From assembly GCA_016779265.1 (NCBI GenBank), contig JADHNY010000030.1:1-37285 (forward strand): a stretch of 37,285 nucleotides of DNA, given 5' to 3'. Positions 288 through 20,435 of the stretch are shown one piece after another. Position 1 is the first letter of the stretch. The number at the start of each line of letters is the position of its first letter. The stretch comes from Pirellulales bacterium (GTDB lineage: Bacteria > Planctomycetota > Planctomycetia > Pirellulales > UBA1268). The notes beneath the pieces are model-generated. The model ran no database searches, was not told where the DNA came from, and worked only from the letters and a program-made list of their open reading frames with translations. The translations under genes and the position numbers were made by a program.

Positions 288-1364
288 ATGCCTCGCCTCC
301 CTGCTCTCGCTGTATTCTTCATCGCAACAGGCCTTGCCTCCTTCAACTGCGATAAGCCCGCACAGGCTGCCGACACCAGCACACACAGCAACGCCGAAAC
401 AAAGGCGACCTGGAAAGAGTTTTCTGGAACATGGATTCGCTACAACGGCAACGCAATAATTGAAAAAATAATCAGCGAAGGACACGAAACACACAACATC
501 CACAGCCTCTACGGCCAACTCTGGAACACATTTTCAAACCCAATGGTTATCGAACAAGAGGGAAAGGTTAGGTATTACCAAAAGATAAACACAGAGACGG
601 GCGAACGATTCGACCGCTATGCGTTTAAGTTAATCAACGGCTATTACTTTGAGTACAACCGCCAAGCCACAGAAGAGTGGATTGCCGCAAACACCGACTC
701 CTGGGAAACAGACTGGCAGTTCAGGCGGGCCAGTCACCCGGTCAACCGCCTCATTTCCGCAGCCCGAAGTGGCGATGTCGACAGCATTAAAGAACTGCTC
801 GATTCAGGAGTCGACGTCGACTCTCAGGTGCAAAACTCCTACACGCCGTTGGCGTACGCCGCAGCAGCAGGTCATGTCAACGCGGTGAAAACACTCATTG
901 CAAGCGGCGCTGACGTCAACCGTCCAGGCCCTTTCCTCAAGACACCCCTCCTTATTGCTATGGGCGGCGACAATATCGAAGTGATTGACGTCCTCCTCGC
1001 TGCGGGAGCAGACTTTCACTGGAGAATGGGGCACGGAGGCGGCATGCTAAACGAGGCAGTTTTCTGGGGGCACCCCAAGGTTGTCTTTTATTGCCTCGAG
1101 AAGGGGGCGAAGGTTGGCAGCAAACTCTACAACGGCTCGACGCCACTTCACGCGGCAGCGTTCCAAGCAGCACAAAACAAAGAAGACCAAAAGACGTACC
1201 TTGAAATAATCAAACTGCTCGTTGAGCACGGGGGTGACCTCAATGCCGAGTCTGATGATGGCCATTCAGCTAGAAAGTTTTTAGAAGACTCGGGAGAGCC
1301 CGAGCTTATCAAGTTTATTGAGGCCGAATCCCAGGTGACTGAAAACCCGCAGCAGACGCGTTGA
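288..1364 (+). CDS. Exported ankyrin-repeat protein
   Basis: The 358-residue product has a hydrophobic N-terminal signal sequence of about 28 residues, ending around AQA-AD. A Cys at residue 21 makes a lipoprotein conceivable, but the lipobox is poor. Residues of about 40-145 form an unrecognised, aromatic-rich domain. From about 150 to 345 there are roughly five ankyrin repeats, seen as recurring TPL..AA..GH, LL..GAD and PLHAAA patterns. A GGAG lies eight bases before the ATG. Ankyrin repeats mediate protein-protein contacts, so this is probably a periplasmic or surface binding protein with an unknown partner. The DNA is visibly AT-richer than its neighbours, and its last 50 bases overlap the 3' end of the opposing LptC/A-like gene, which suggests later acquisition or read-through of an older stop codon. 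Confidence 0.85.
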   Translation: MPRLPALAVFFIATGLASFNCDKPAQAADTSTHSNAETKATWKEFSGTWIRYNGNAIIEKIISEGHETHNIHSLYGQLWNTFSNPMVIEQEGKVRYYQKINTETGERFDRYAFKLINGYYFEYNRQATEEWIAANTDSWETDWQFRRASHPVNRLISAARSGDVDSIKELLDSGVDVDSQVQNSYTPLAYAAAAGHVNAVKTLIASGADVNRPGPFLKTPLLIAMGGDNIEVIDVLLAAGADFHWRMGHGGGMLNEAVFWGHPKVVFYCLEKGAKVGSKLYNGSTPLHAAAFQAAQNKEDQKTYLEIIKLLVEHGGDLNAESDDGHSARKFLEDSGEPELIKFIEAESQVTENPQQTR

Positions 1365-4300
1365 TCTGGTCGAGATCGAGGTAGCGAGCATCGTGGACGT
1401 CAACACGATTGAGGCTTCGCCAATAGGAGATTTTGCCGGCCGACGCGGTTGATGTGGGAGCGCCCACGCGCTCCTGCCGGTAGAGCTCTGCGTCGCTGCG
1501 GCCGTCACCTTCAAACACGATCAGGTCTTTGGCCTCACTCCAGCTCAGCCGTGAACTGCGGCCAGTGAAGGTATCCCCTTCGACAAGAATGTTGCCAAGC
1601 GCAGACATTTCCAGGCTCGCCTGACGCACACCAGGCAGTGGTGGCGTCTGCCCCACACTGAGGACGTCGCTGGAGATGCGGACCGTCCGCGGGGGCAGTC
1701 CTCGGGCGTCGTGAACATCAAGCGTCTGATCCCAGCTGGTCACCGGCCCAAAGATGGCCTCAACGCGTTGCTGAAACTCAAGCGTCCGCTGACCGAGATT
1801 GCCGGCGAGCCCACGCTGAAAGTCAACCGAGAGGTAGGTCAGTTCGTCCGGACGAGGAGAGGGCGGGACGCTGGCAGTGGCTGTGAGTTCAGACGGTGTC
1901 GCAAACCCGGGAGCCTGACCAAGCCTCACGTTCTCCAGACGTCCAGGGCCATTGCCCACCACCTGCCCGGTCGTGCGGTCGATGAGCAGATCACGCACGT
2001 AGAGGCGTTCCACCGACCTCGAGCCTGTATCGGTGTGGCTGACATTGTGGATCTTGACGCCACTGCCACAGGCGATGCGAGCCACATCCGCCTCTCCCGT
2101 GCTGCCCCCAGCAGTCATCGCGGCAAAGTCAAAAGGCCGGTTGAGCACAACATCGAGCGAGCCTGCCTCCAGCGTGCCTTCGCCACTGGAGGTCACCACG
2201 CGATCGATGAAGCGAGCCGTCAGCCCATCGAAGTCCATCCGCCCCTGCCAGGTCACGTCAAGCGACTGAGCTCCCACCCCTGGCGGAACTGCTGCGGCAG
2301 AAGCCGGCACGCTTCCCGCGGCCAACGCTTCCAGCCCAAGCCCGCCGTCTGCCACTGGCAGTCGCATCCGCCCTGCCCCATCAACCGTCATCCGATTTCG
2401 GCCGCGGTCGACCTCAACCAGCGGTCCCTCAAGCTCCATTCCCTGGCCGGTAATTCGGGCAGGCCGTCCAGCAACAGTCGCTCGTGCGTCAAAGCCGGTC
2501 GGACGGACCACCTGCAGCTGATCTCCCACAATCACCAGCGGCGGCTCCGACTCACCGTGCAGCGGCTCCTCGATCAGCTGAACGGCGTCCTCGAGTGAGA
2601 TCTCGGCAACCTCCGGCCCGGAGGGTTTCATGTCGACAAGCCCTCGCATCAGCGCTCCGGTGGCGACAATCCGGCCACGGTCTGGGCTCACTTCGGCAGC
2701 CGCAGCGAGAGGTGCCGCCGGGGGCGGCTGGAGAGGAGCCTGCGGTGGAGGCGGCTGGCGTGGGGCCGCTGCCGCTGCTGCATTGGCCGGGGTGGCAGGA
2801 CGAACAGGAGCGACAGGCTCTGGATACCGAAACCAGATCTCCAGCCGATCACTGCGTGCTGCCAGCTGTGAGGCATCGGTCTCCACGATGCCCCGAGCGA
2901 GCATTCGTGACGGCTTCACGCCGGCCAGGCTCACTCCACCAGGACCAGCAGGCACTGGCGGTGCAGACGCGTTCTGATCCATCTCCAGCCAGAGGTGGAT
3001 CTCCGAGGCTGCCAGACTCCCCTGGCCATCAAAACTCGCCTTCGCGTCCCCTGCCACCGAGGCCACATGGCCATCACCATCCGGCCGAACCCGCAGCCAC
3101 TTCTTCCAGGCCACCCGCACCGGGCCGTGCGCTGCCGTCGGCTTCGATTCAAACCAGCCTGGTCCCACAGCCATCAGCGCGCCCGGCGAACCAGGTGGCC
3201 CCGGCACATAGTCGACTGACCGGGCCTCGAGCTCTGCATCGGAGCTGAGCAAGAGCACAGGCTGTTCGCCATCGAGGAGAATCCGACGACTCGCCATCTC
3301 ATAGCCGAGTCGTTCAGCTCGTGCCTCAAGTCCGCCTGAGGTGCTGCGAGCTACCACGGGAGTCCCGCGGGCCTCAAGCTCGACCGGTTGCAGGCCTCCT
3401 GTGTTGACGCCTTCAGCATCTTCAGAGCTCCCCTCACCTGCCAGTAGAATCGAGAGCCGATCACACGCCAGCTGTTCGATGCTGCCGTCCTGTAGGGTTC
3501 GCGACACATCGACGCTATCGGTGAGCGTGATCAGGCGGCTCACCATCGCGAACTCCAGGCTCCCGCGACTGCGGACCATCACCGGTGATTCAGAACTGGC
3601 ATCGGCCGGATCACTCCCCGGCAGAAAACCACCCGCCAGACCTTCGAGGCGAATCTGAACGTCTCGCTCAAGACGCATCGACTCCACACCGTCGAGCGCT
3701 GGCCCGCGTTCGTTCACCTCTCCCGGCTTGGCAAGCAGGCGTGCAATGAAGCCCCGGCCACTCCCGCGGCTGCGACCGTAGCGAAACTGCACCGCCTCGA
3801 TCGTCTGCAGACGGTTGTCGGCAAGTTCGAGATCACGGGTGAGGATCTCAATCTCATCTTCACCATCAGCTGCCGTCGCGGTGCCACGCACGCTCACCTC
3901 GCCCCGCAGGTTGCCACCAACCAGCTTGGCAAGCCGTCCCTGGCGAAGATCGATCGGCTCGTCAAACTCAAGCACCGCCCCCTGGGGTGCCCGCACGATC
4001 ACCGTGCGGCCAGCCGGCTCGTCAGCCATCGGAGGCTCGGGAAGCAGCACGAGCGTGCAGGGGACGAGATTTACTCGACCATCCGGCAGGGAGTGATACT
4101 CCTTGAACAGCAGCCGCATCCGACTGCTCTCCAACACGATCGGCTCATCCCGCTCCCACGAACCCTCGGGGAAAATGTTGCCAAGGCTTGCCAGCCGGCT
4201 CATCGCGCGGGCACGGATGGCAGCCGCCTCTTCGGCAGTCGGCTCGAGCGCCACCTCGGTTGCTGTCGAATGCTCCACCAGTGGCACTATCGTCAGCCGA

Positions 4301-4365
4301 TAGAACCCGGTCGCAGCCAGCGCGATCAGGAACACGCGGAGCGTACGTCCGACTCTGTGTTCCAT
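1315..4365 (-). CDS. Giant LptC/LptA (OstA)-like LPS transport protein
   Basis: The 1016-residue protein begins with one membrane anchor (residues about 9-30) and continues as a long, probably periplasmic, beta-rich chain. Short repeated elements such as GRLENVRL, ARGIVETDASQLAARSD and LEARSVDYVPG resemble the OstA/LptA jelly-roll pattern. An Ala/Pro-rich linker at residues of about 515-555 splits it into two halves. In E. coli the order kdsD-kdsC-lptC-lptA is conserved. Here the gene follows kdsD and kdsC on the same strand, so it probably replaces LptC and LptA as the bridge carrying LPS across the periplasm. LptC is about 190 residues and LptA about 185, so this is about five times larger than either. 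The open frame extends to 4554, but that would overlap kdsC; the ATG at 4365 starts directly before the membrane segment. Family placement is inference from context and pattern. No lptB lies inside the window. Confidence 0.65.
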   Translation of the reverse strand: MEHRVGRTLRVFLIALAATGFYRLTIVPLVEHSTATEVALEPTAEEAAAIRARAMSRLASLGNIFPEGSWERDEPIVLESSRMRLLFKEYHSLPDGRVNLVPCTLVLLPEPPMADEPAGRTVIVRAPQGAVLEFDEPIDLRQGRLAKLVGGNLRGEVSVRGTATAADGEDEIEILTRDLELADNRLQTIEAVQFRYGRSRGSGRGFIARLLAKPGEVNERGPALDGVESMRLERDVQIRLEGLAGGFLPGSDPADASSESPVMVRSRGSLEFAMVSRLITLTDSVDVSRTLQDGSIEQLACDRLSILLAGEGSSEDAEGVNTGGLQPVELEARGTPVVARSTSGGLEARAERLGYEMASRRILLDGEQPVLLLSSDAELEARSVDYVPGPPGSPGALMAVGPGWFESKPTAAHGPVRVAWKKWLRVRPDGDGHVASVAGDAKASFDGQGSLAASEIHLWLEMDQNASAPPVPAGPGGVSLAGVKPSRMLARGIVETDASQLAARSDRLEIWFRYPEPVAPVRPATPANAAAAAAPRQPPPPQAPLQPPPAAPLAAAAEVSPDRGRIVATGALMRGLVDMKPSGPEVAEISLEDAVQLIEEPLHGESEPPLVIVGDQLQVVRPTGFDARATVAGRPARITGQGMELEGPLVEVDRGRNRMTVDGAGRMRLPVADGGLGLEALAAGSVPASAAAVPPGVGAQSLDVTWQGRMDFDGLTARFIDRVVTSSGEGTLEAGSLDVVLNRPFDFAAMTAGGSTGEADVARIACGSGVKIHNVSHTDTGSRSVERLYVRDLLIDRTTGQVVGNGPGRLENVRLGQAPGFATPSELTATASVPPSPRPDELTYLSVDFQRGLAGNLGQRTLEFQQRVEAIFGPVTSWDQTLDVHDARGLPPRTVRISSDVLSVGQTPPLPGVRQASLEMSALGNILVEGDTFTGRSSRLSWSEAKDLIVFEGDGRSDAELYRQERVGAPTSTASAGKISYWRSLNRVDVHDARYLDLDQINASAAGFQSPGIRPQ

Positions 4366-4450
4366 GATGGCCAATCCCGGGTGGCAGACGCGTGTGGTGA
4401 ATGAAACGTAAGTGACGTGCGATGGAAACCGGCCTCGACTGCCAACGCTC

Positions 4451-5038
4451 CTACGATGCCTGTCCTGTCTGGAAACGACGCACTGCTGACTCCCAGACTC
4501 CCTGGGCCCGCAGCAGCTGCTCCACGAGTTCGCGAACGGCACCACGGCCGCCACGCGTGTTTGTCACGATATCCGCTGCTTCACGCAGATCATCGCAGGC
4601 ATCCGCCACGGCCACGCCGACACCACACGACATCACACAGGCAAGATCGGGCAAATCGTCACCCACAAACGCCGCCTCGTGCCAACCGAGCCCGTACTCC
4701 TGAAGAATCGCTTCCACCGCGGCTCGCTTGTCACCAACACCCTGCCGAACGATGCCGACACCCAGCTCACCCGCACGCACAGCCACCACGTGACTCGACC
4801 GGCCGGTGACAATCCCTACGAGGCCGCCACTCTTGGCCCAGAGCTTGATGCCGAGGCCATCACGGATGTGAAAGGACTTCTGCTCAATGCCGTTGTTATC
4901 CCACGTCACCATGCCGTCGGTGAGCACACCATCCACATCGAGCAGCAGGATGCGAACCGCCCGCAGCCGCTCTTCGAGTTGATCCAGCTGCGTGGTGGAG
5001 GAGAGGTCGTCTGGCACAGCCGTCGTTGATGAAGTCAT
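4451..5038 (-). CDS. kdsC: 3-deoxy-D-manno-octulosonate 8-phosphate phosphatase
   Basis: The 195-residue HAD-superfamily phosphatase removes phosphate from Kdo-8-phosphate, giving Kdo for the LPS inner core in the cytosol. Motif I is LLLDVDGVLTDG, with nucleophile D34 and acid/base D36. Motif II is VTGRSS near 77-82, the conserved Lys is K104, and motif III is GDDLPDL at 126-132. It lacks a large cap domain, as expected for the C0-type tetrameric KdsC. The first 20 residues form a Ser/Thr-rich extension. The gene lies 33 bases after kdsD and 85 bases before the LptC/A-like gene, forming an LPS operon. Its start has no clear Shine-Dalgarno. Confusion with another HAD phosphatase is unlikely given kdsD beside it. 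Confidence 0.93.
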   Translation of the reverse strand: MTSSTTAVPDDLSSTTQLDQLEERLRAVRILLLDVDGVLTDGMVTWDNNGIEQKSFHIRDGLGIKLWAKSGGLVGIVTGRSSHVVAVRAGELGVGIVRQGVGDKRAAVEAILQEYGLGWHEAAFVGDDLPDLACVMSCGVGVAVADACDDLREAADIVTNTRGGRGAVRELVEQLLRAQGVWESAVRRFQTGQAS

Positions 5039-5071
5039 TGCTGAGCGTTGTGTTTCTGCAGTGGCACGCGG

Positions 5072-6142
5072 TTAGGCCGCCCGGCGGACCTGGCGGTCGC
5101 CGAGGCTTTCAGGGAGCAGCTCCGGCGGAACGAGACCGACGAGATCGACAATGTCGAGCAGACCGAGGGGACGACCCTCGGCATCGACCACCGGCAGTTC
5201 ACTCAGCCGATACTGTTCAAGCAGGGTGACCGCGTCGGACAACCGCAGGCCCGCAGCCGCCGTGCGAGGCTGTCGCGTCATCACCTCTTCGATAGGGCTA
5301 TCGAGAGCGGCATCGTTTCGCCGCTCAAAGAGCCGAGCCAGATCACTGTCGGTGAAGATGCCGGCCAGGCTTCCAGAGTCGTCAAGAATCATCACCGCTC
5401 CGGTGCGTCGTGCAGGAAGCGTTCTGCCAAACACATCGCGGACGGTCTCTCCCAGCCTGGCCACGCGACAGCCGTCGAGAGGCTGCATCACCTCATCAAC
5501 GGTGGCCAGTTTCCGCCCCAGGCTGCCGCCAGGATGCCGTTGGGCAAAGTCATCGCTGGTGAACTGACGCAGTGAACTGGCTGCCAGAGCGAGCGCATCT
5601 CCGAGAGCGAGCATCACAGCCGTGCTGGTGCTCGGCGCCAGCCCCAGGGTGCAGGCTTCGCGAACCTTGCCGCTGGACACCACCACGCGTGCCGCCTTGC
5701 CAAGACTGCTCGAGGGGTTTCCGGTGATGGCCACAATCGGCACATCGAGAGCCGCCAGATGGGGCAGCAGCCGCGTGATCTCTTCGCTCTCTCCCGACTG
5801 CGAGAGAGCCAGCACAAGATCGTCACCACGGAGCATGCCAAGATCACCATGCATCGCTTCGGCTGGGTGAAGAAAGTGCGAGGGAGATCCCGTAGAGGCG
5901 AGCGTGGCAGTGATCTTGCGTGCGATCAGCCCTGCCTTGCCGATCCCCGTCACAACCACCGATCCACTGCACTCATAAATCAGTCGCACCGCCTTGCAGA
6001 ACGAAATACCCAACGATTCCGAAGCTGCCAGCACCGCCTGCCCCTCAGCTTCGAGAATCGCCCGGCCTTGGGCGAGCAGTTCCCGATCCCCGAGGGCAGC
6101 CACGCTCTCACCGCTCTTGGAAACCCGTTTCGGCATCTGCAT
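5072..6142 (-). CDS. kdsD: D-arabinose 5-phosphate isomerase (KdsD/KpsF family)
   Basis: This enzyme interconverts ribulose 5-phosphate and arabinose 5-phosphate, the first committed step toward Kdo. The 356-residue product has an SIS sugar-isomerase domain at about 45-185, with GIGKAGLIARK (66-76), SQSGESEE (114-121) and the KdsD signature FAQRHPGGSLGR (199-210). Two CBS domains follow, at about 215-275 and 283-335. The length is slightly above the usual 320-330, mainly from a 20-residue N-terminal extension. An in-frame ATG two codons downstream is an alternative start, and neither has a clear ribosome-binding site. It is followed by kdsC on the same strand, which supports a Kdo pathway operon. 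The CBS pair may bind a nucleotide or product for allosteric control. Confidence 0.93.
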   Translation of the reverse strand: MQMPKRVSKSGESVAALGDRELLAQGRAILEAEGQAVLAASESLGISFCKAVRLIYECSGSVVVTGIGKAGLIARKITATLASTGSPSHFLHPAEAMHGDLGMLRGDDLVLALSQSGESEEITRLLPHLAALDVPIVAITGNPSSSLGKAARVVVSSGKVREACTLGLAPSTSTAVMLALGDALALAASSLRQFTSDDFAQRHPGGSLGRKLATVDEVMQPLDGCRVARLGETVRDVFGRTLPARRTGAVMILDDSGSLAGIFTDSDLARLFERRNDAALDSPIEEVMTRQPRTAAAGLRLSDAVTLLEQYRLSELPVVDAEGRPLGLLDIVDLVGLVPPELLPESLGDRQVRRAA

Positions 6143-10818: not shown

Positions 10819-11832
10819 ATGCCTGCAGTCGCCCCCCTCGCTCGTGCTTTCTCTCCGTTGTCATGGCCCGCGTGTTCCTGGCTCGCCGTCATGGCGGTGT
10901 GCCTGGTCTCGCTGACTGGCTGCAACGGTGGTGAAGGCAAGCGGGAGTTCATCAGCGTAGGAACGGCACCGATCGGTGGCGTCTTCTACACGGTGGGCAG
11001 CGCGGTTAGCGATGTGGTGAATGAGGCCCAGGGCGACCTCGGCTGGCGGGTGACAGCAGAGAGCACCGGCGGCTCGATGGAGAACATCCGCCTCCTCTCC
11101 CAAGGCAAACTGCAGTTTGCAATGTCCAACTCGTCAATCACTTATTTCGCGGTTCGTGGCGAGGAGGGCTGGGAAGAGAAGCATGCCACGCAGAGCGTGA
11201 TGACCTTGTTCCCCAACGTAGCCCAGTTTGTGGTGCCGGCCACGTCCGACATCCAGTCGATCGCCGACCTCAAGGGCAAGCGTGTCTACCTCGGCCCAGA
11301 AGGCGCCGGCTTTGAATACTTCGTGAGGCCGATCCTGGCTGCCCACGGCCTGTCGCTCGACGATGTGGATGCCCGCTACGGAAGCCAGCAGGCAGCAGTT
11401 GACCTCCTTGGCGACGGCTCGGTCGATGCCGCGATGGTCGGTGGAGGCATCCCCAGCCCTGCCCTTTCGCAGATTGCCCAGGCGAATCCTGTGCGGCTGG
11501 TGCCTTTCGAAGAGGCCGCCCACGCGGCGCTGATTGCTGACTATCCGTTCTTCGAGGCCGCAACGGTTCCCGGCGGCACCTACGACGGGCTCGATGAAGA
11601 CTTCACCGGCCTCAACGTCGGCTCGGCCCATCTGGTCACTGACGAGAGTGTCGACGAAGACCTTGTCTACCAGTTCACGAAGCTCGTCTGGGAGAACCGG
11701 GCGAAGATCGCCGAGCGTCATCGTGCAGCCCGGGCGATCAACGAGAAGAATGCTGTCCGCAACAACGGCACACCGTTCCATCCTGGCGCGATCCGCTTCT
11801 ACAAGGAAGCTGGCCTCTGGCCTGCGGAGTGA
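10819..11832 (+). CDS. TAXI-family TRAP transporter substrate-binding lipoprotein
   Basis: The 337-residue product is a TAXI-type solute receptor. A signal peptide is followed by a lipobox LTGC with the Cys near residue 35. The mature protein starts with the family hallmark SVGTAPIGGVFYTVGSA and continues with ESTGGSMENIRLL, SDIQSIADLKGKRVYLGPEGAGFE and MVGGGIPSPAL. It would bind a small organic anion in the periplasm; substrates of TAXI systems are poorly known, glutamate or 2-oxoglutarate-like acids being examples. Lipid anchoring is unusual, since most TRAP receptors are soluble. GGGAGA lies six bases before the ATG. The permease begins six bases after the stop, so the two are co-transcribed. 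Confidence 0.92.
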   Translation: MPAVAPLARAFSPLSWPACSWLAVMAVCLVSLTGCNGGEGKREFISVGTAPIGGVFYTVGSAVSDVVNEAQGDLGWRVTAESTGGSMENIRLLSQGKLQFAMSNSSITYFAVRGEEGWEEKHATQSVMTLFPNVAQFVVPATSDIQSIADLKGKRVYLGPEGAGFEYFVRPILAAHGLSLDDVDARYGSQQAAVDLLGDGSVDAAMVGGGIPSPALSQIAQANPVRLVPFEEAAHAALIADYPFFEAATVPGGTYDGLDEDFTGLNVGSAHLVTDESVDEDLVYQFTKLVWENRAKIAERHRAARAINEKNAVRNNGTPFHPGAIRFYKEAGLWPAE

Positions 11833-11838
11833 TCATCG

Positions 11839-14001
11839 ATGACAGAGGGCACCGGTCCTGAGGCCGCTGGCCATAAAGCCACGAAGCCCCTTGGCCCCCA
11901 TCAGCTCAGCAGGCTGCTGATCGCGACGGCGTTGGCGGTGTACGTCCTCGTGGAGGTGAGCATTCCGATGCTCCCGCCACTGGGCGAGCTTGCCGTGTTT
12001 GGCGGGTTCGGACTTGTACTCTGCTTTCTTGGCGCCGCGGTACCGGCAGGTCGCGTCGCTGCTGCGGTGAACATCGTGCTGGCAGTCCTGTCGGCCCTCT
12101 GCTGCGGCTATCTCGTTCTGCAGTCAGAGACGCTTGGTCAGCGAGCGGCGCTCTACACCACACCAGACCTCATCGTCGGCGGCCTTGGCATGCTGCTCGT
12201 GCTCGAGGCAGCGCGCCGTTCGGTTGGCTGGTCTCTGCCGATCCTGGCGATGCTGTTCCTGCTTTACGCCCACGAGAGTGTGGCGAGGAGCCTGCCAGAC
12301 TGGCTCTTCCCGCACCGTGGACAAGACCTCCAAGCGATCATCGGCCAGAGCTGGCTGCGTAGCGAAGGCGTGTTTGGCACCGCGATGGGCGTCATGTTTC
12401 GCTACGTGTTTCTGTTTGTGCTCTTCGGTGCGGTGCTCGAAGCCGCCGGTGCCACAGGCTGGGTGATCGGGGTGGCTCAGCGACTGTTTGGCAAACGAGC
12501 CGGCGGGCCGGCCAAGGTCGCCGTGCTAGCCAGCGGCCTGATGGGTTCCCTCTCCGGAAGTGCTGTGGCCAATGCAGCCACCACCGGCACGTTTACGATT
12601 CCCCTGATGCGGGGCATCGGCTTCTCACCCGCGATCGCTGCAGGAATCGAGGCGGCGGCCTCGTCTGGCGGAGCATTGGTGCCGCCGGTCATGGGAGCCG
12701 GGGCCTACATGATGCTCGAGATCATTAACCGCGACCCACCGGTGCGGTTTCTCGAGATTGTGCAGGCCGCGATCGTGCCCGCGATCCTCTACTACCTCTC
12801 GATCTTTTTACTGGTGCACTTCTACGCGCGTCGGATTGACGAGGCCTCCAGCTCTTCGACCGACAGCACTGCCACCGATGCGGTCGAGCGAGACACCGCC
12901 GTAGCAGACGCGTTCCCGGCCGAGCAGGCAGCCGTGTTCAGCCTCGAAGGGCTGACATTCGTGGGCGCTCTTGGCGGCCTGATGGTGCTGCTGTTCATGG
13001 GCTTCTCGCCGTTTCGCGCAGTGAGCATGGCGACCTGCTTTGCGATGCTGATGATCCTCATCAACCCGCGGACTGGTGGCTCGTGGCTCTCACGAGTGGC
13101 TGCCGCGGCAACGTGGGCAGGCCTCTCAGCATTGGCGGCATTTCTTTGGCCCAACCAGGTGGGCTGGGGAGAGGCTCCAATCGCGGGTCTCGCAGGCCTC
13201 CTCGTTGTGTTGATGGTGGTCAGCCTGTGCGTACCGCTGTGGGGCGGCCGGATCATCACGCTCGTGAAGACGACGGCCATTGGTGGCGTGCCACTGGTGG
13301 CTGCGGCAGCCTGCGTGGGAATCATCATTGGCCTGGTGTCCCGCACCGGCATCGGCACAGGCGTGCCCGCAGCCATCATTCCGCTGGCTGGCAACAGCCT
13401 GTTTCTGGCGTTGCTGGCGATCATGGGCTGCTCGCTTGTGCTCGGGATGGGACTGCCGAGCGCGGTCTCCTACCTGCTGTTGGCGACCATCATCGGACCG
13501 GTCTTTACGGATCCCGCGCTCGGCGTGCCGATCCTGGCCGCCCACCTATTCATCTTCTATTTCGGCATGATGGCGATGGTCACCCCGCCGGTTGCCTTGG
13601 CCGCTTACGCCACCGCGTCGATCGCGGGAGCCGACGTAATGCGAGCCAGCCTGGCAGCATTCCGGTTCGCGTTGGTCGGCTTCACGCTGCCGTATATGTT
13701 CGTCTACCGCCCAGCGCTCTGCCTGATGAATCACGACGGTGGTACGGCGGCTCCGATTCAGGTGCTCGGCGCCGTCGCGGCGGCGGTGATCGGCATCGTG
13801 GCGTTGGCCGCTGGGATGGCTGGCTACCTGAATGCCCGCCTCACATGGCCTCTGCGTCTGGTCTGCTTCGCAGCGGCTGCCTGTGCACTTGCGCCCGACA
13901 GCCTGAGCATTGCGGGCACAGGCTTCTCGTTTGTCGACCTGGCTGGCCTCGGCATGCTCGTCGGCGTCGCGATCGTTGGTCGCCGGCAGGCCTCGAGCTA
14001 G
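11839..14001 (+). CDS. TRAP transporter fused permease (DctQM, 4TM/12TM type)
   Basis: The 720-residue polytopic membrane protein fuses the small DctQ-like and large DctM-like TRAP subunits, as is usual for TAXI systems. The first four or so hydrophobic segments (about residues 20-150) form the Q part. The M part starts with VFGTAMGVMFRYVFLFVLFGAVLEAAGA and contains the family signatures GSLSGSAVANAATTGTFTIPLM, EAAASSGGALVPPVMGAGAY and LGMGLPSAVSYLL. A charged Ser/Thr/Asp/Glu-rich loop at about 330-365 separates the two inverted halves. Transport is driven by a cation gradient and depends on the receptor encoded immediately upstream. The substrate cannot be read from the sequence. Confidence 0.93.
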   Translation: MTEGTGPEAAGHKATKPLGPHQLSRLLIATALAVYVLVEVSIPMLPPLGELAVFGGFGLVLCFLGAAVPAGRVAAAVNIVLAVLSALCCGYLVLQSETLGQRAALYTTPDLIVGGLGMLLVLEAARRSVGWSLPILAMLFLLYAHESVARSLPDWLFPHRGQDLQAIIGQSWLRSEGVFGTAMGVMFRYVFLFVLFGAVLEAAGATGWVIGVAQRLFGKRAGGPAKVAVLASGLMGSLSGSAVANAATTGTFTIPLMRGIGFSPAIAAGIEAAASSGGALVPPVMGAGAYMMLEIINRDPPVRFLEIVQAAIVPAILYYLSIFLLVHFYARRIDEASSSSTDSTATDAVERDTAVADAFPAEQAAVFSLEGLTFVGALGGLMVLLFMGFSPFRAVSMATCFAMLMILINPRTGGSWLSRVAAAATWAGLSALAAFLWPNQVGWGEAPIAGLAGLLVVLMVVSLCVPLWGGRIITLVKTTAIGGVPLVAAAACVGIIIGLVSRTGIGTGVPAAIIPLAGNSLFLALLAIMGCSLVLGMGLPSAVSYLLLATIIGPVFTDPALGVPILAAHLFIFYFGMMAMVTPPVALAAYATASIAGADVMRASLAAFRFALVGFTLPYMFVYRPALCLMNHDGGTAAPIQVLGAVAAAVIGIVALAAGMAGYLNARLTWPLRLVCFAAAACALAPDSLSIAGTGFSFVDLAGLGMLVGVAIVGRRQASS

Positions 14002-14039
14002 CGAAGCCTTCGCTTTGGGACCCACCCATGAAACGAAAA

Positions 14040-14067
14040 CAGCCGGCACACTTTCGTGCGCCGGCTG
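14040..14067 (-). terminator. Intrinsic terminator of the Cys-rich lipoprotein gene
   Basis: Arms 14040-14050 and 14057-14067 form an 11-bp stem with one mismatch around the loop CTTTCG. Read on the minus strand, the stem is followed by TTTTCGTTTC, a good U-rich tail. It begins 26 bases after the lipoprotein stop codon. On the plus strand no U-tract follows, so it would act only weakly for the TRAP permease gene, which ends at 14001. Confidence 0.75.
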
Positions 14068-14092
14068 CAAAAAATCGTTCATCTTGTGTGGC

Positions 14093-14671
14093 TCAGGGTC
14101 CGATCGACGGTGGGCACTTCGCCAGGAAGTCGCGAGGACCGCGGGTCGTGTAGTACGGGTAGGCCACAGCGCCAGTCGGAGGACCGGCTGGTCCCATCTG
14201 CTGACAGCCACCGTGGGCACACCGTTCACCAGGCGTGAGCCGATGCCGAGCCAGCCCGCCGTAGCGGCCGCAGTGCTGACGGCATGCCTGGCATGAGCCA
14301 TCGTGGCACGCCCGACCGTAGCAGCCACCATGCACGCAGATCCCGTTGCGACAGCCCATGTTGCCACAGGCTCCATCACGGCAGGCCATGCCACCATCGC
14401 CGAAGTAGCCGGCAATGCCACCGCCATTGTTCCGGCACGCGCCATCACGGCAGCCGCCATCTGCACAGTCATCCGTGCAGCTCTGCAAGTACCCCACCTG
14501 CTGAACGCCGGTGTCCCCGCTTTCAGCCTCCGCCATTACGGCGTGCGGGCCGCCCGGCTGGGACGCATAGGGGCCGTCTGCGTTGAGCAGGAACAACCGA
14601 TCGATCAGCGAACAGCCGCTTCCCGTCGCGAGGACCACGGCAGCGAGGCTCAAAGTGAGCATGTGTTTCAT
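14093..14671 (-). CDS. Cys-rich pentapeptide-repeat lipoprotein
   Basis: The 192-residue product has a signal peptide with lipobox GSGC (Cys20), so it should be a lipid-anchored envelope protein. Sixteen further Cys follow. The core has strict five-residue spacing: C97, C102, C107, C112, C117, C122 and C127, with units such as CRDGA, CGNMG, CRNGI, CVHGG and CHDGS. Shorter runs occur at C69/C74/C79 and C151/C156. Gly, His and Asp fill the spacers. No known domain is recognised; metal binding or a disulfide ladder are both possible. The C-terminal YYTTRGPRDFL..CPPSIGP resembles, from memory, tails of other planctomycete secreted proteins. A full AGGAGG Shine-Dalgarno and a dedicated terminator suggest a separately, perhaps strongly, expressed gene. 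Confidence 0.8.
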   Translation of the reverse strand: MKHMLTLSLAAVVLATGSGCSLIDRLFLLNADGPYASQPGGPHAVMAEAESGDTGVQQVGYLQSCTDDCADGGCRDGACRNNGGGIAGYFGDGGMACRDGACGNMGCRNGICVHGGCYGRACHDGSCQACRQHCGRYGGLARHRLTPGERCAHGGCQQMGPAGPPTGAVAYPYYTTRGPRDFLAKCPPSIGP

Positions 14672-15008
14672 AGTGAGATCCCCTCCTGACGGAAGCGGCG
14701 ACCGGCAGCAATGGGCCGTCGGACCAGTTCTTCCGAGACCACCGGTGGTATCGGTCGTGCCGCCCCTGCGGGTTGAGAAAACCGGTGGGGATTGCAGAAC
14801 TGGCGGAGTGAGGAGCGGGGTATGCCCCGCCTGCGGGGCGGCAGATGTCGCGTCGCTGTGATTTTTTCGCCACGCACTCCTGCGGCATCACGCAATCAAC
14901 ACAGGGCGAAAAACTCAAACGCTCCTCGAGCACCCGCCGACCCCTCCGCCTCCACGTATTCCGCCTCACGTCGTGGTGCTGCGGTGGATCAACGAGCATG
15001 CGGCTTGC
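14672..15008. other. Intergenic region, lipoprotein upstream and fabF downstream
   Basis: This 337-bp stretch has no convincing gene. It holds the ribosome-binding site and presumably the promoter of the lipoprotein gene, plus a GC-rich hairpin at 14824-14839 (7-bp stem, 2-nt loop). That hairpin lies about 170 bases beyond the fabF stop and has no adjacent U-tract on the minus strand, so its role is unclear. Confidence 0.5.
14682..14687 (-). promoter_or_regulatory. Strong Shine-Dalgarno for the Cys-rich lipoprotein
   Basis: AGGAGG on the minus strand lies ten bases before the ATG at 14671. It is one of the few full-consensus ribosome-binding sites in a window where most starts have weak or no Shine-Dalgarno. 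It fixes the start at the signal peptide and suggests efficient translation. Confidence 0.75.
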
Positions 15009-16316
15009 CTAGCCGTCGTAGCGGCCAACAATCAGCGAGATATTCTGGCCACCGAACCCGAAGCTGTTGGAGAGGGCCCGCTGACAAGGTGCCTCGCGGG
15101 ACGCATTGGGGATGTAGTCGAGGTCGCAGTCAGGATCGGGTGTCTCGTAGTTGATCGTTGGCGGCAGGATCTGATCGCGGATCGCGAGCAGGCAGACGAT
15201 CAGTTCGGTAGCGCCAGCGGCTGCGATCAGATGCCCCATCATGCTCTTCGTGCTGGAGACAGGGATCTTGTAGGCCTGCGGGCCAAAGACCTGCTTGATG
15301 GCCAACGATTCCACCCGGTCGTTCACGCTCGTGCTTGTGCCGTGGGCGTTGACGTAGTGGATATCACCGAGACCAAGGCCTGCATCTTCCAACGCCATGC
15401 GGATGCAGGCGGAAGCACCTCGCCCCTCAGGATGCGTGTCGGTGATCCTGTAAGCGTCAGCTGTTGAGCCGTAGCCGAGGAGCTCGCCGTAGATCGTGGC
15501 TCCACGCTTGCGGGCATGCTCAAGCTCTTCAAGCACGACCATTGCGGAGCCTTCGCCGAGCACGAAGCCATCCCGGTCGCGGTCGAAAGGCCGACTCGCT
15601 CGGGCCGGCTCATCGTTTCGTGTCGACAGGGCAGTGAGCAGATTGAAGCCCGTCACTCCAAACGGGTGGATCATGCTGTGCGTGCCACCGGAGAGCATCA
15701 CATCCGTTTCGCCACGACGGATCAGTTCTGTGGCTTCTCCGATCGCCTGGCTCGATGCGGCACAGGCAGTTAAGCAGTTGACATTCGGGCCTTGCGCGTT
15801 GAACACCCCCGCAAGATGCCCGGCAGGCATGTTTGGTTCTTGCTCAATCTCAGCAAGCGGATGCAGTCTCTCCAGGCCGAGCTTGGTGAAGCGGCCGATG
15901 TCGAGCGTCTCCCCGTCGATCGCCTCCATCATCATGGCGGTGAACGAGTTGAAGTCTTGCTGCCCTTCACCACTGCCCAGGTAGACGCCGAGCCGAGTGG
16001 GGTCCTCAAGGCCGTCTGCGAGCCCGGCGTCGGTCATCGCCCGCATCGCCGCGCCCGCGGCAAACTTGGTGTGGCGACCGCAGTATTTCCAGTCTTCTGC
16101 GTTGTAGCCCTCGTCCGTGATATCCCAGTCGCGAACCTCGGCTGCGATTTTCGTGGGAAAGTTCGAGGCGTCGAAGATGGTGGTGTGGCCCACACCGGAA
16201 TCGCCCTTCTTAAGGTGATCCCAGAGCGTGTCTACCCGCGTGCCCAGGGGCGTGATGCAGCCCATGCCCGTCACCACGACACGTCGTCTGCTGCTGCCCA
16301 TTGTCAATCCATCCAT
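15009..16316 (-). CDS. fabF: Beta-ketoacyl-ACP synthase II (FabF-type)
   Basis: This condensing enzyme adds malonyl-ACP units to an acyl-ACP chain. The 435-residue protein has the full thiolase-fold pattern: VVVTGMGCITPLG at the N-terminus, nucleophile C185 in TACAASS, H325 in NAHGTSTSVND, the KSMMGH motif with H362, and the C-terminal NSFGFGGQN loop. It is slightly longer than E. coli FabF (about 413). ATG codons at residues 1 and 6 are both possible starts, with no clear Shine-Dalgarno at either. It is the last gene of the same-strand order dehydratase, ACP, dehydratase, ketosynthase. That context suggests a condensing enzyme devoted to the special ACP in the cluster rather than bulk fatty acid synthesis. 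This specialisation is inference. Confidence 0.93.
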   Translation of the reverse strand: MDGLTMGSSRRRVVVTGMGCITPLGTRVDTLWDHLKKGDSGVGHTTIFDASNFPTKIAAEVRDWDITDEGYNAEDWKYCGRHTKFAAGAAMRAMTDAGLADGLEDPTRLGVYLGSGEGQQDFNSFTAMMMEAIDGETLDIGRFTKLGLERLHPLAEIEQEPNMPAGHLAGVFNAQGPNVNCLTACAASSQAIGEATELIRRGETDVMLSGGTHSMIHPFGVTGFNLLTALSTRNDEPARASRPFDRDRDGFVLGEGSAMVVLEELEHARKRGATIYGELLGYGSTADAYRITDTHPEGRGASACIRMALEDAGLGLGDIHYVNAHGTSTSVNDRVESLAIKQVFGPQAYKIPVSSTKSMMGHLIAAAGATELIVCLLAIRDQILPPTINYETPDPDCDLDYIPNASREAPCQRALSNSFGFGGQNISLIVGRYDG

Positions 16317-19541: not shown

Positions 19542-20435
19542 ATGCCACTGCTGCTGACCGCCCGCGAGGACGTGCTGGGCAGCGGCTGCCTTGAGGCAGA
19601 CATCGCCGGACTTCTCCCTTCCGCGGTCGCCAACGCACCTGCCGTCGAGGTCGCACGATACCCAATCCAACTGGGGCCAGCCCACCTGGCGAAGCAGGCA
19701 TGTGCGCTGGGAGAGCTGTTCTCGGTTGCGGGCTGCTGTGACGACGGTCGAATCCTCTTTCGTGGCGACACCCGCCGCGTCCACCGGATTGCCGCAGGCA
19801 TGACTGTCGGTGTCATCGAGACTGAAGGAGACGTCGGTCGCCATGCAGGGGAAGCCATGCAGGGGGGCCGCCTGAACATCGGTGGCTCGGCAGGCGACTG
19901 GCTCGCCTCCGGCATACGGGGGGGGGTTGTGCACCTGCTCGGCTCGGCAGGTGACCATGCTGCAGCTGCTCTGCCCCGCTGCGACCAGGGGGTCAATGGG
20001 GGCACGGTGCTGACCGGGGGCACGGTGCTGACCGGGGGCACAGTGCTGACCGGGGGCACAGTGCTGATCGAAGGCTCTGTCGGCCTGCTGGCAGGCTCTC
20101 GCATGCGACGCGGTATGCTCGCCATCGGCGGAGACTGCGGAGAAGCGGCTGCCTATCAGCTTCGGGCCGGCACCGTCGTGGTGGCAGGCCGCGTGGGCAG
20201 GCGTGCTGGTGCCGGGATGCGTCGGGGCTCCCTCGTCGCTCTTGGCCCAAGTCCGGACATCTGGCCAGCGTTTGCCCGCGGGACTGTCTGGAACGCACCA
20301 GTTGTGTCGATGATGCTGAAATGGCTCGCGAGCCAGGGATGGAAATCAGCGGCGGCGAGCGTTCGGGGCCCCTGGCAACAGTGGCATGGCGACCTGACAA
20401 CTGGCGGAAAAGGCGAACTTTTCTGCCGCGTCTGA
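19542..20435 (+). CDS. fhcC: Formyltransferase/hydrolase complex subunit C (FwdC/FmdC-like)
   Basis: The 297-residue product resembles subunit C of formylmethanofuran dehydrogenase and of the bacterial formyltransferase/hydrolase complex, which handles formyl transfer in the tetrahydromethanopterin C1 pathway. The central 90-240 region is a Gly-rich right-handed beta-helix like the glutamate synthase C-terminal domain, with [35 protein letters not shown] and [15 protein letters not shown]. The C-terminus [16 protein letters not shown] is non-repetitive. Residues 153-176 are four copies of GGTVLT (last copy GGTVLI), encoded by an 18-bp repeat. Other Fhc subunits are not in the window, which fits scattered C1 genes in planctomycetes. 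GltB-like family members are the alternative, but the size fits a stand-alone subunit C. Confidence 0.8.
19998..20069 (+). repeat. In-frame 4 x 18 bp tandem repeat inside fhcC
   Basis: Four adjacent 18-bp units, GGGGGCACGGTGCTGACC with minor changes, encode GGTVLT three times and GGTVLI once. Units 1 and 2 are identical; 3 and 4 differ by one and two bases. The near-identity implies recent slippage. The unit adds six residues without a frameshift. Confidence 0.92.

Follow-up and report, generated by a model that had tools for sequence, protein, structure and literature searches.

A cysteine-rich Pirellulales lipoprotein with a variable spacer and a conserved C-terminal tail peptide

The lipoprotein gene and its surroundings

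The DNA analysed here (the window, a stretch of 37,285 nt from a Pirellulales bacterium) carries a gene for a Cys-rich lipoprotein of 192 amino acids, for which the following gene-level features are noted:

14093..14671 (stop codon included), minus strand: open reading frame of the Cys-rich lipoprotein, 192 aa
14680..14687 (read 14687-14680), minus strand: Shine-Dalgarno sequence AGGAGGGG, from the sequence, ending 8 nt 5' of the ATG
14612..14671, minus strand: signal peptide and lipobox GSGC with the putatively lipidated Cys20, judged by pattern from the sequence
14570..14614, minus strand: mature N-terminus CSLIDRLFLLNADGP, conserved in the close family
14039..14068, minus strand: intrinsic terminator of the lipoprotein gene, 3' of the stop codon
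15009..18157, minus strand: FabA-like / ACP / FabA-like / beta-ketoacyl synthase (KS) cluster, the upstream neighbour

The reading frame, given in the initial annotation with no strand, is real and lies on the minus strand; orthologues in L003 (77%) and L004 (70%) share its start. Its description there as a lipoprotein also holds, with the lipobox ending at Cys20. The N-terminus (MKHMLTLSLAAVVLATGSGC20) has the n-region, h-region and lipobox cysteine of a signal peptidase II substrate, an assignment made by pattern and not by SignalP or LipoP. Gly19-Cys20 is nearly invariant among the 47 aligned members, and, of 35 Pirellulales members, 34 have a site that a simple pattern marks as resembling a lipobox. 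Of the mature N-terminus, the element (I/L)xDRLF is recognisable in some other Pirellulales families; in the Planctomycetales members L174-L179, the sequence close to the start of the mature protein holds another conserved element, [IV][VIM]RGQSP or a slight variation of it.

The terminator consists of a 13-bp stem, a GAAA loop and a T-rich tail (-27.4 kcal/mol, z -4.3). This terminator and the gene's own Shine-Dalgarno sequence, from which the earlier view of the protein as an independent, perhaps abundant product was drawn, are both real; a search of positions 13950-15050 around the gene found no sigma-70-like promoter and, thus, an independent promoter is not established.

The start of the lipoprotein gene lies ~340 bp past the 3' end of the beta-ketoacyl synthase gene, which has the same orientation. 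The lipoprotein gene adjoins the cluster in the window's family, where it follows the synthase codirectionally, and at eight other large Pirellulales loci, in several families of the order; elsewhere the arrangement is convergent. The FabA-like / ACP / FabA-like / KS order is itself constant from one Pirellulales family to another, with the cluster inverted against the lipoprotein gene. At several other loci, an ABC transporter lies divergently upstream of the tail-protein gene. The short flanks of loci outside Pirellulales showed neither the KS cluster nor the ABC transporter, and these conserved neighbours do not point to a partner. As a functional lead the KS cluster was set aside, its adjacency being limited to part of Pirellulales and its orientation inverted between families.

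Elsewhere in the window, on the plus strand, are a TAXI-type TRAP system (10819-14001; an NMT1-like binding protein and, after it, a DctM permease of 720 aa), which is convergent with the lipoprotein gene, and a GXGXG-motif protein (19542-20435; PF01493) with a near-perfect six-residue tandem repeat. On the minus strand, a HAD phosphatase lies beside a SIS-CBS protein (4451-6142) and resembles with it the KdsC/KdsD pair of LPS-core synthesis; the adjoining 1079-aa ORF (1315-4554) has no Pfam match.

The C-terminal tail and its distribution

The part of the protein that is truly conserved, judging by the alignment of relatives, is a C-terminal peptide overlooked in the initial annotation:

14096..14161, minus strand: invariant C-terminal tail YPYYTTRGPRDFLAKCPPSIGP, residues 171-192

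The tail (peptide YPYYTTRGPRDFLAKNPPSIGP) follows the pattern YPYYTxRGPRDFL...P..IGP in Pirellulales and the more general motif YPYYTxx[G/A/S]PxDF. The YPYYT...P.DF core is identical in 41 of 41 members at large loci, a set gathered by that same motif. The distance from the start of the motif to the C-terminus is likewise fixed, being 22-23 aa in all but one of the 35 Pirellulales members and 15-16 aa in each of the six Planctomycetales members. Relatives gathered by profile, with no pattern used, have only slight changes in the tail (YPYYS, DY for DF, YPYFT). At the codon level, silent sites vary freely and the residues are fixed (pS 0.41-0.55, pN <=0.017). The octet DFLAKCPP served as a retrieval pattern, which inflates its invariance in L003-L031; profile-found relatives in the close family have AKNP or ATCP in place of AKCP. 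Tail position 186 is Asn in most Pirellulales families and mostly Cys in the window's family (NPPSIGP to CPPSIGP), such that Cys186 of the close family is a cysteine gained within the conserved tail. The Pirellulales tail ends in IG[P/Y/R/N], and some Planctomycetales members end in Lys.

The degenerate DNA pattern YxYYTxxxPxDF, in which the second residue is left free, matches 206 of 398 Planctomycetia genomes (107 of 124 in the window's order). All 206 have exactly one match, and the free position is a Pro codon in each of the matches listed. The reversed control pattern gave no match, nor did the pattern itself outside Planctomycetia (294 phylum genomes searched). When 12 pattern-negative genomes of the window's order were searched again with the tail profile A2, the tail was present in 11, slightly altered (e.g., YPYYS or PRDY). 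Within the window's GTDB family, profile searches detect the protein in 66 of 72 genomes, including all 34 of good quality. Relatives are encoded at 30 loci in public genomes, the closest (77% identity) in a Pirellulales MAG.

The initial annotation knew of no family with such a pattern, and database searches agree: (i) Pfam has no match to the window protein alone at E up to 10, pentapeptide-repeat and other repeat solenoids included, or to the 47 aligned relatives at E up to 0.01, (ii) no NCBIfam model matches the window protein or any of these 47, and (iii) a profile search of the PDB gave no matching chain. The full-length search of the protein's own genome for a paralogue gave a single other match, a weak one (E 0.37), and none of the papers in the collection searched mentions RGPRDF or SPRDFF.

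Sub-threshold profile matches in other Planctomycetia families are secreted proteins that end in ...RSPRDF[F/Y/W]... Profile A3, built from the tail profile and six such RSPRDF-type sequences, was run on 45 genomes of the class and 25 from outside it. With the six training genomes excluded, 34 of 39 class genomes match at E <0.01 compared to none of the 25 controls (best 0.0395). Among the best 30 matches, the set that was read (24 independent), all lie within 10-25 residues of the end of a protein whose N-terminus resembles a signal peptide; of these proteins, some are Cys-rich and others are without any cysteine. The shorter [R/K][G/S]PRDF core is, on this sequence evidence, likely homologous to the Pirellulales tail. 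The anchor differs between lineages: most members from Pirellulales, and most of those sampled from Planctomycetales, have a lipoprotein signal, and other lineages have ordinary signal peptides. The tail marks an undescribed, essentially single-copy protein family restricted to Planctomycetia, to which the window protein, being secreted, single copy and furnished with YPYYTxx[GAS]PxDF near its C-terminus, belongs.

The tail is proposed to act as a linear peptide by which the protein docks onto a single conserved partner in the envelope. An unlikely alternative, which the near-invariant sequence and fixed distance from the C-terminus would suit, is that the tail directs sorting or processing, being recognised and perhaps cut by machinery dedicated to it. 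PEP-CTERM or type IX signals, however, occur on many proteins per genome, whereas only one tail is found per genome here, and this tail has neither a hydrophobic segment nor a basic cluster; the protein is, thus, not grouped with the PEP-CTERM-like sorted proteins.

The cysteine array and the spacer

Between the lipobox and the tail is a Gly- and Cys-rich middle with three arrays of cysteines:

14435..14479, minus strand: first short Cys array, C65, C69, C74, C79
14291..14383, minus strand: main C-x4 array, seven Cys from C97 to C127, in a spacer region that varies in relatives
14204..14221, minus strand: second short array, C151, C156

The 192 residues include 7 His and 17 Cys (20, 65, 69, 74, 79, 97, 102, 107, 112, 117, 122, 127, 130, 134, 151, 156 and 186). 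The translated sequence confirms the exact spacing of five from C97 to C127 that had been described earlier, and the two shorter arrays mentioned with it correspond to 69-74-79 and 151-156. Chance was rejected as a source of the periodicity: when the mature sequence was shuffled 20,000 times, a C-x4 run of seven was reached once and a run of seven at any period from 2 to 12 also once, and the corresponding counts were 0 and 8 when the Cys-rich segment 65-134 was shuffled as often.

The initial annotation held that loss of the spacing in orthologues would count against the array, and this is in part what is found. Among 28 close relatives, counting the window protein, gaps of five account for 56% of all Cys-Cys gaps, with uninterrupted C-x4 arrays of 11 Cys in L005 and 10 in L027; in the subgroup L012-L023 the array is broken into mixed gaps of 3, 4, 5 and 6. 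Among 36 members from other families, gaps of five make up only 17%, and some of these relatives are down to 1-5 Cys with the tail unchanged. The stretch from lipobox to tail spans 32-158 residues in Pirellulales members and has 1-23 Cys, the lipid Cys included, which in L164 is the sole cysteine. The array is, therefore, neither a product of chance nor a defining architecture: as far as the relatives' sequences indicate, it is one of several ways to fill the spacer and not the conserved feature of the family. Runs of seven Cys at pitch five are also present in two Pirellulales families other than the window's, in L145 (6641-7012, minus strand; units CGLGG/CADGG) and L161 (5819-6580, plus strand; units CGMGD), which suggests that pitch five was gained repeatedly.

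AlphaFold2 models have a mean pLDDT of 45 (24 aligned sequences) and 54 (47 aligned sequences); the only confident helix covers the signal peptide and the residues right after it, and values reach ~67 over part of the tail. The spacer between lipobox and tail is, thus, predicted to be unfolded. The repeating disulfide ladder or solenoid offered in the initial annotation, in which the C-x4 stretch folds as a rigid rod with cysteines paired along its axis, is absent from these models; pLDDT is mostly <50 in the array, although AlphaFold2 is a poor judge of low-complexity Cys-rich sequence. Such a rod would fit the strict pitch of five over as many as 11 Cys and its presence in two further families, but the loss of spacing in many relatives and the existence of Cys-poor ones render it improbable.

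A metal-binding role, in which the array with its His and Asp residues chelates a soft metal at the envelope in the manner of a periplasmic metallothionein or metal sink, is slightly harder still to sustain. The number of Cys and His residues, their regular spacing and the protein-level selection on the array are consistent with it. By contrast, several relatives with 1-5 Cys retain an unchanged tail, no metal-transport or metal-regulation gene is among the conserved neighbours named, no Pfam metal-binding family is matched, and thiols are not usually free in an oxidising envelope.

Copy number of the perfect CQDGA repeats differs between close relatives, and replication slippage of a 15-bp unit may be the origin of the C-x4 array; that the periodicity is a functionless by-product of such slippage is very improbable and, as a cause of its persistence, slippage is largely refuted by synonymous divergence, as the 17 amino-acid-identical pairs of neighbouring units include none that is DNA-identical and differ at 45 nucleotides in total. 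Since identical residues are encoded by DNA that is never identical, with a pooled pN/pS of 0.39 between neighbouring units, the array is old and kept by selection on the protein in the window's family.

Proposed function and relation to known envelope proteins

The reading favoured here, though tentatively, is that of an adaptor anchored in the envelope, with a variable spacer that can be oxidised and a docking peptide at its C-terminus. The protein would be the Pirellulales version of a secreted protein that occurs throughout Planctomycetia in essentially a single copy. The lipid on Cys20, from the lipoprotein signal seen in the sequence, would anchor the protein in the envelope. From this anchor would extend the low-complexity spacer of variable length, with cysteines at a five-residue pitch in the window protein, and these cysteines may form disulfides in the oxidising envelope, either within the molecule or with Cys-rich proteins next to it in the envelope. 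Some relatives (e.g., L004 and L008) have an odd number of Cys, which does not fit purely intramolecular pairing. Cys-poor members exist and, thus, disulfides cannot be the common function; the C-x4 array is instead proposed to tune the stiffness or cross-linking of the spacer and not to be an essential element. The five-fold variation in spacer length argues against a tether of fixed length.

The candidate disulfide partners are the YTV-domain wall proteins (PF07639), which are found in 40 of 40 Planctomycetia genomes tested, the window's included, compared to 0 of 10 outside the class. The window's genome encodes L116, with 29 Cys in 349 residues, and L118, with 7 Cys in 615, both on other contigs than the window. 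Cys-rich YTV proteins have been found in planctomycete wall preparations (PMC8567305). As L118 is Cys-poor and YTV proteins are class-wide in any case, the partnership is an argument from co-distribution. The YTV proteins resemble the lipoprotein in being class-restricted, secreted, of the envelope and, in some cases, Cys-rich, and they co-occur with it in the same genomes. They differ in that they are long, contain YTV repeats and occur as several copies in a genome; the YTV domain has no match in the window protein or its 47 aligned relatives, which are, thus, not counted as members.

Other systems offer likenesses to single parts of the protein. The phylum of the chlamydial protein OmcA is related to Planctomycetes (PVC group). 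OmcA, likewise a small secreted Cys-rich lipoprotein, is the closest functional analogue on the cysteine side and is thought to stiffen the envelope jointly with other Cys-rich proteins (PMC2811131). The window protein and 47 members are set apart from OmcA by their lack of a Pfam match and not by residue-by-residue alignment. Tethers of the Braun lipoprotein (Lpp) type have an analogous layout of lipid anchor, spacer and functional C-terminus. Lpp is a helical coiled coil that ends in a Lys linked to peptidoglycan; by contrast, the spacer of the window protein is predicted to be unfolded and the Pirellulales tail closes on a different terminus. On the side of the tail, the closest functional analogues are proteins such as the cytosolic SSB and FtsZ, which pair a linker variable in length and composition with an invariant terminal docking peptide. 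The window protein differs from these in being secreted and, by its signal, lipid-anchored, so that the shared terminal-peptide layout is an analogy.

The adaptor reading has a wider form, which is possible but less probable than not by some distance. All Planctomycetia would carry one envelope protein whose sole common part is the C-terminal [R/K][G/S]PRDF peptide, docking onto a wall layer or an envelope machine specific to planctomycetes, with the anchor (lipid or none) and the spacer (Cys-rich, C-x4, His- or Gly-rich) rebuilt lineage by lineage.

The make-up of the planctomycete envelope has long been debated, as a protein wall or peptidoglycan. The near-invariant tail of a class-restricted, essentially single-copy protein that is absent from Pfam and NCBIfam provides a handle on this envelope, for example as bait for a partner, and the gene is amenable to deletion in cultured planctomycetes, which would offer a further handle on envelope make-up. 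The protein also serves as an example of a spacer that is free in length and Cys content around a fixed terminal peptide.
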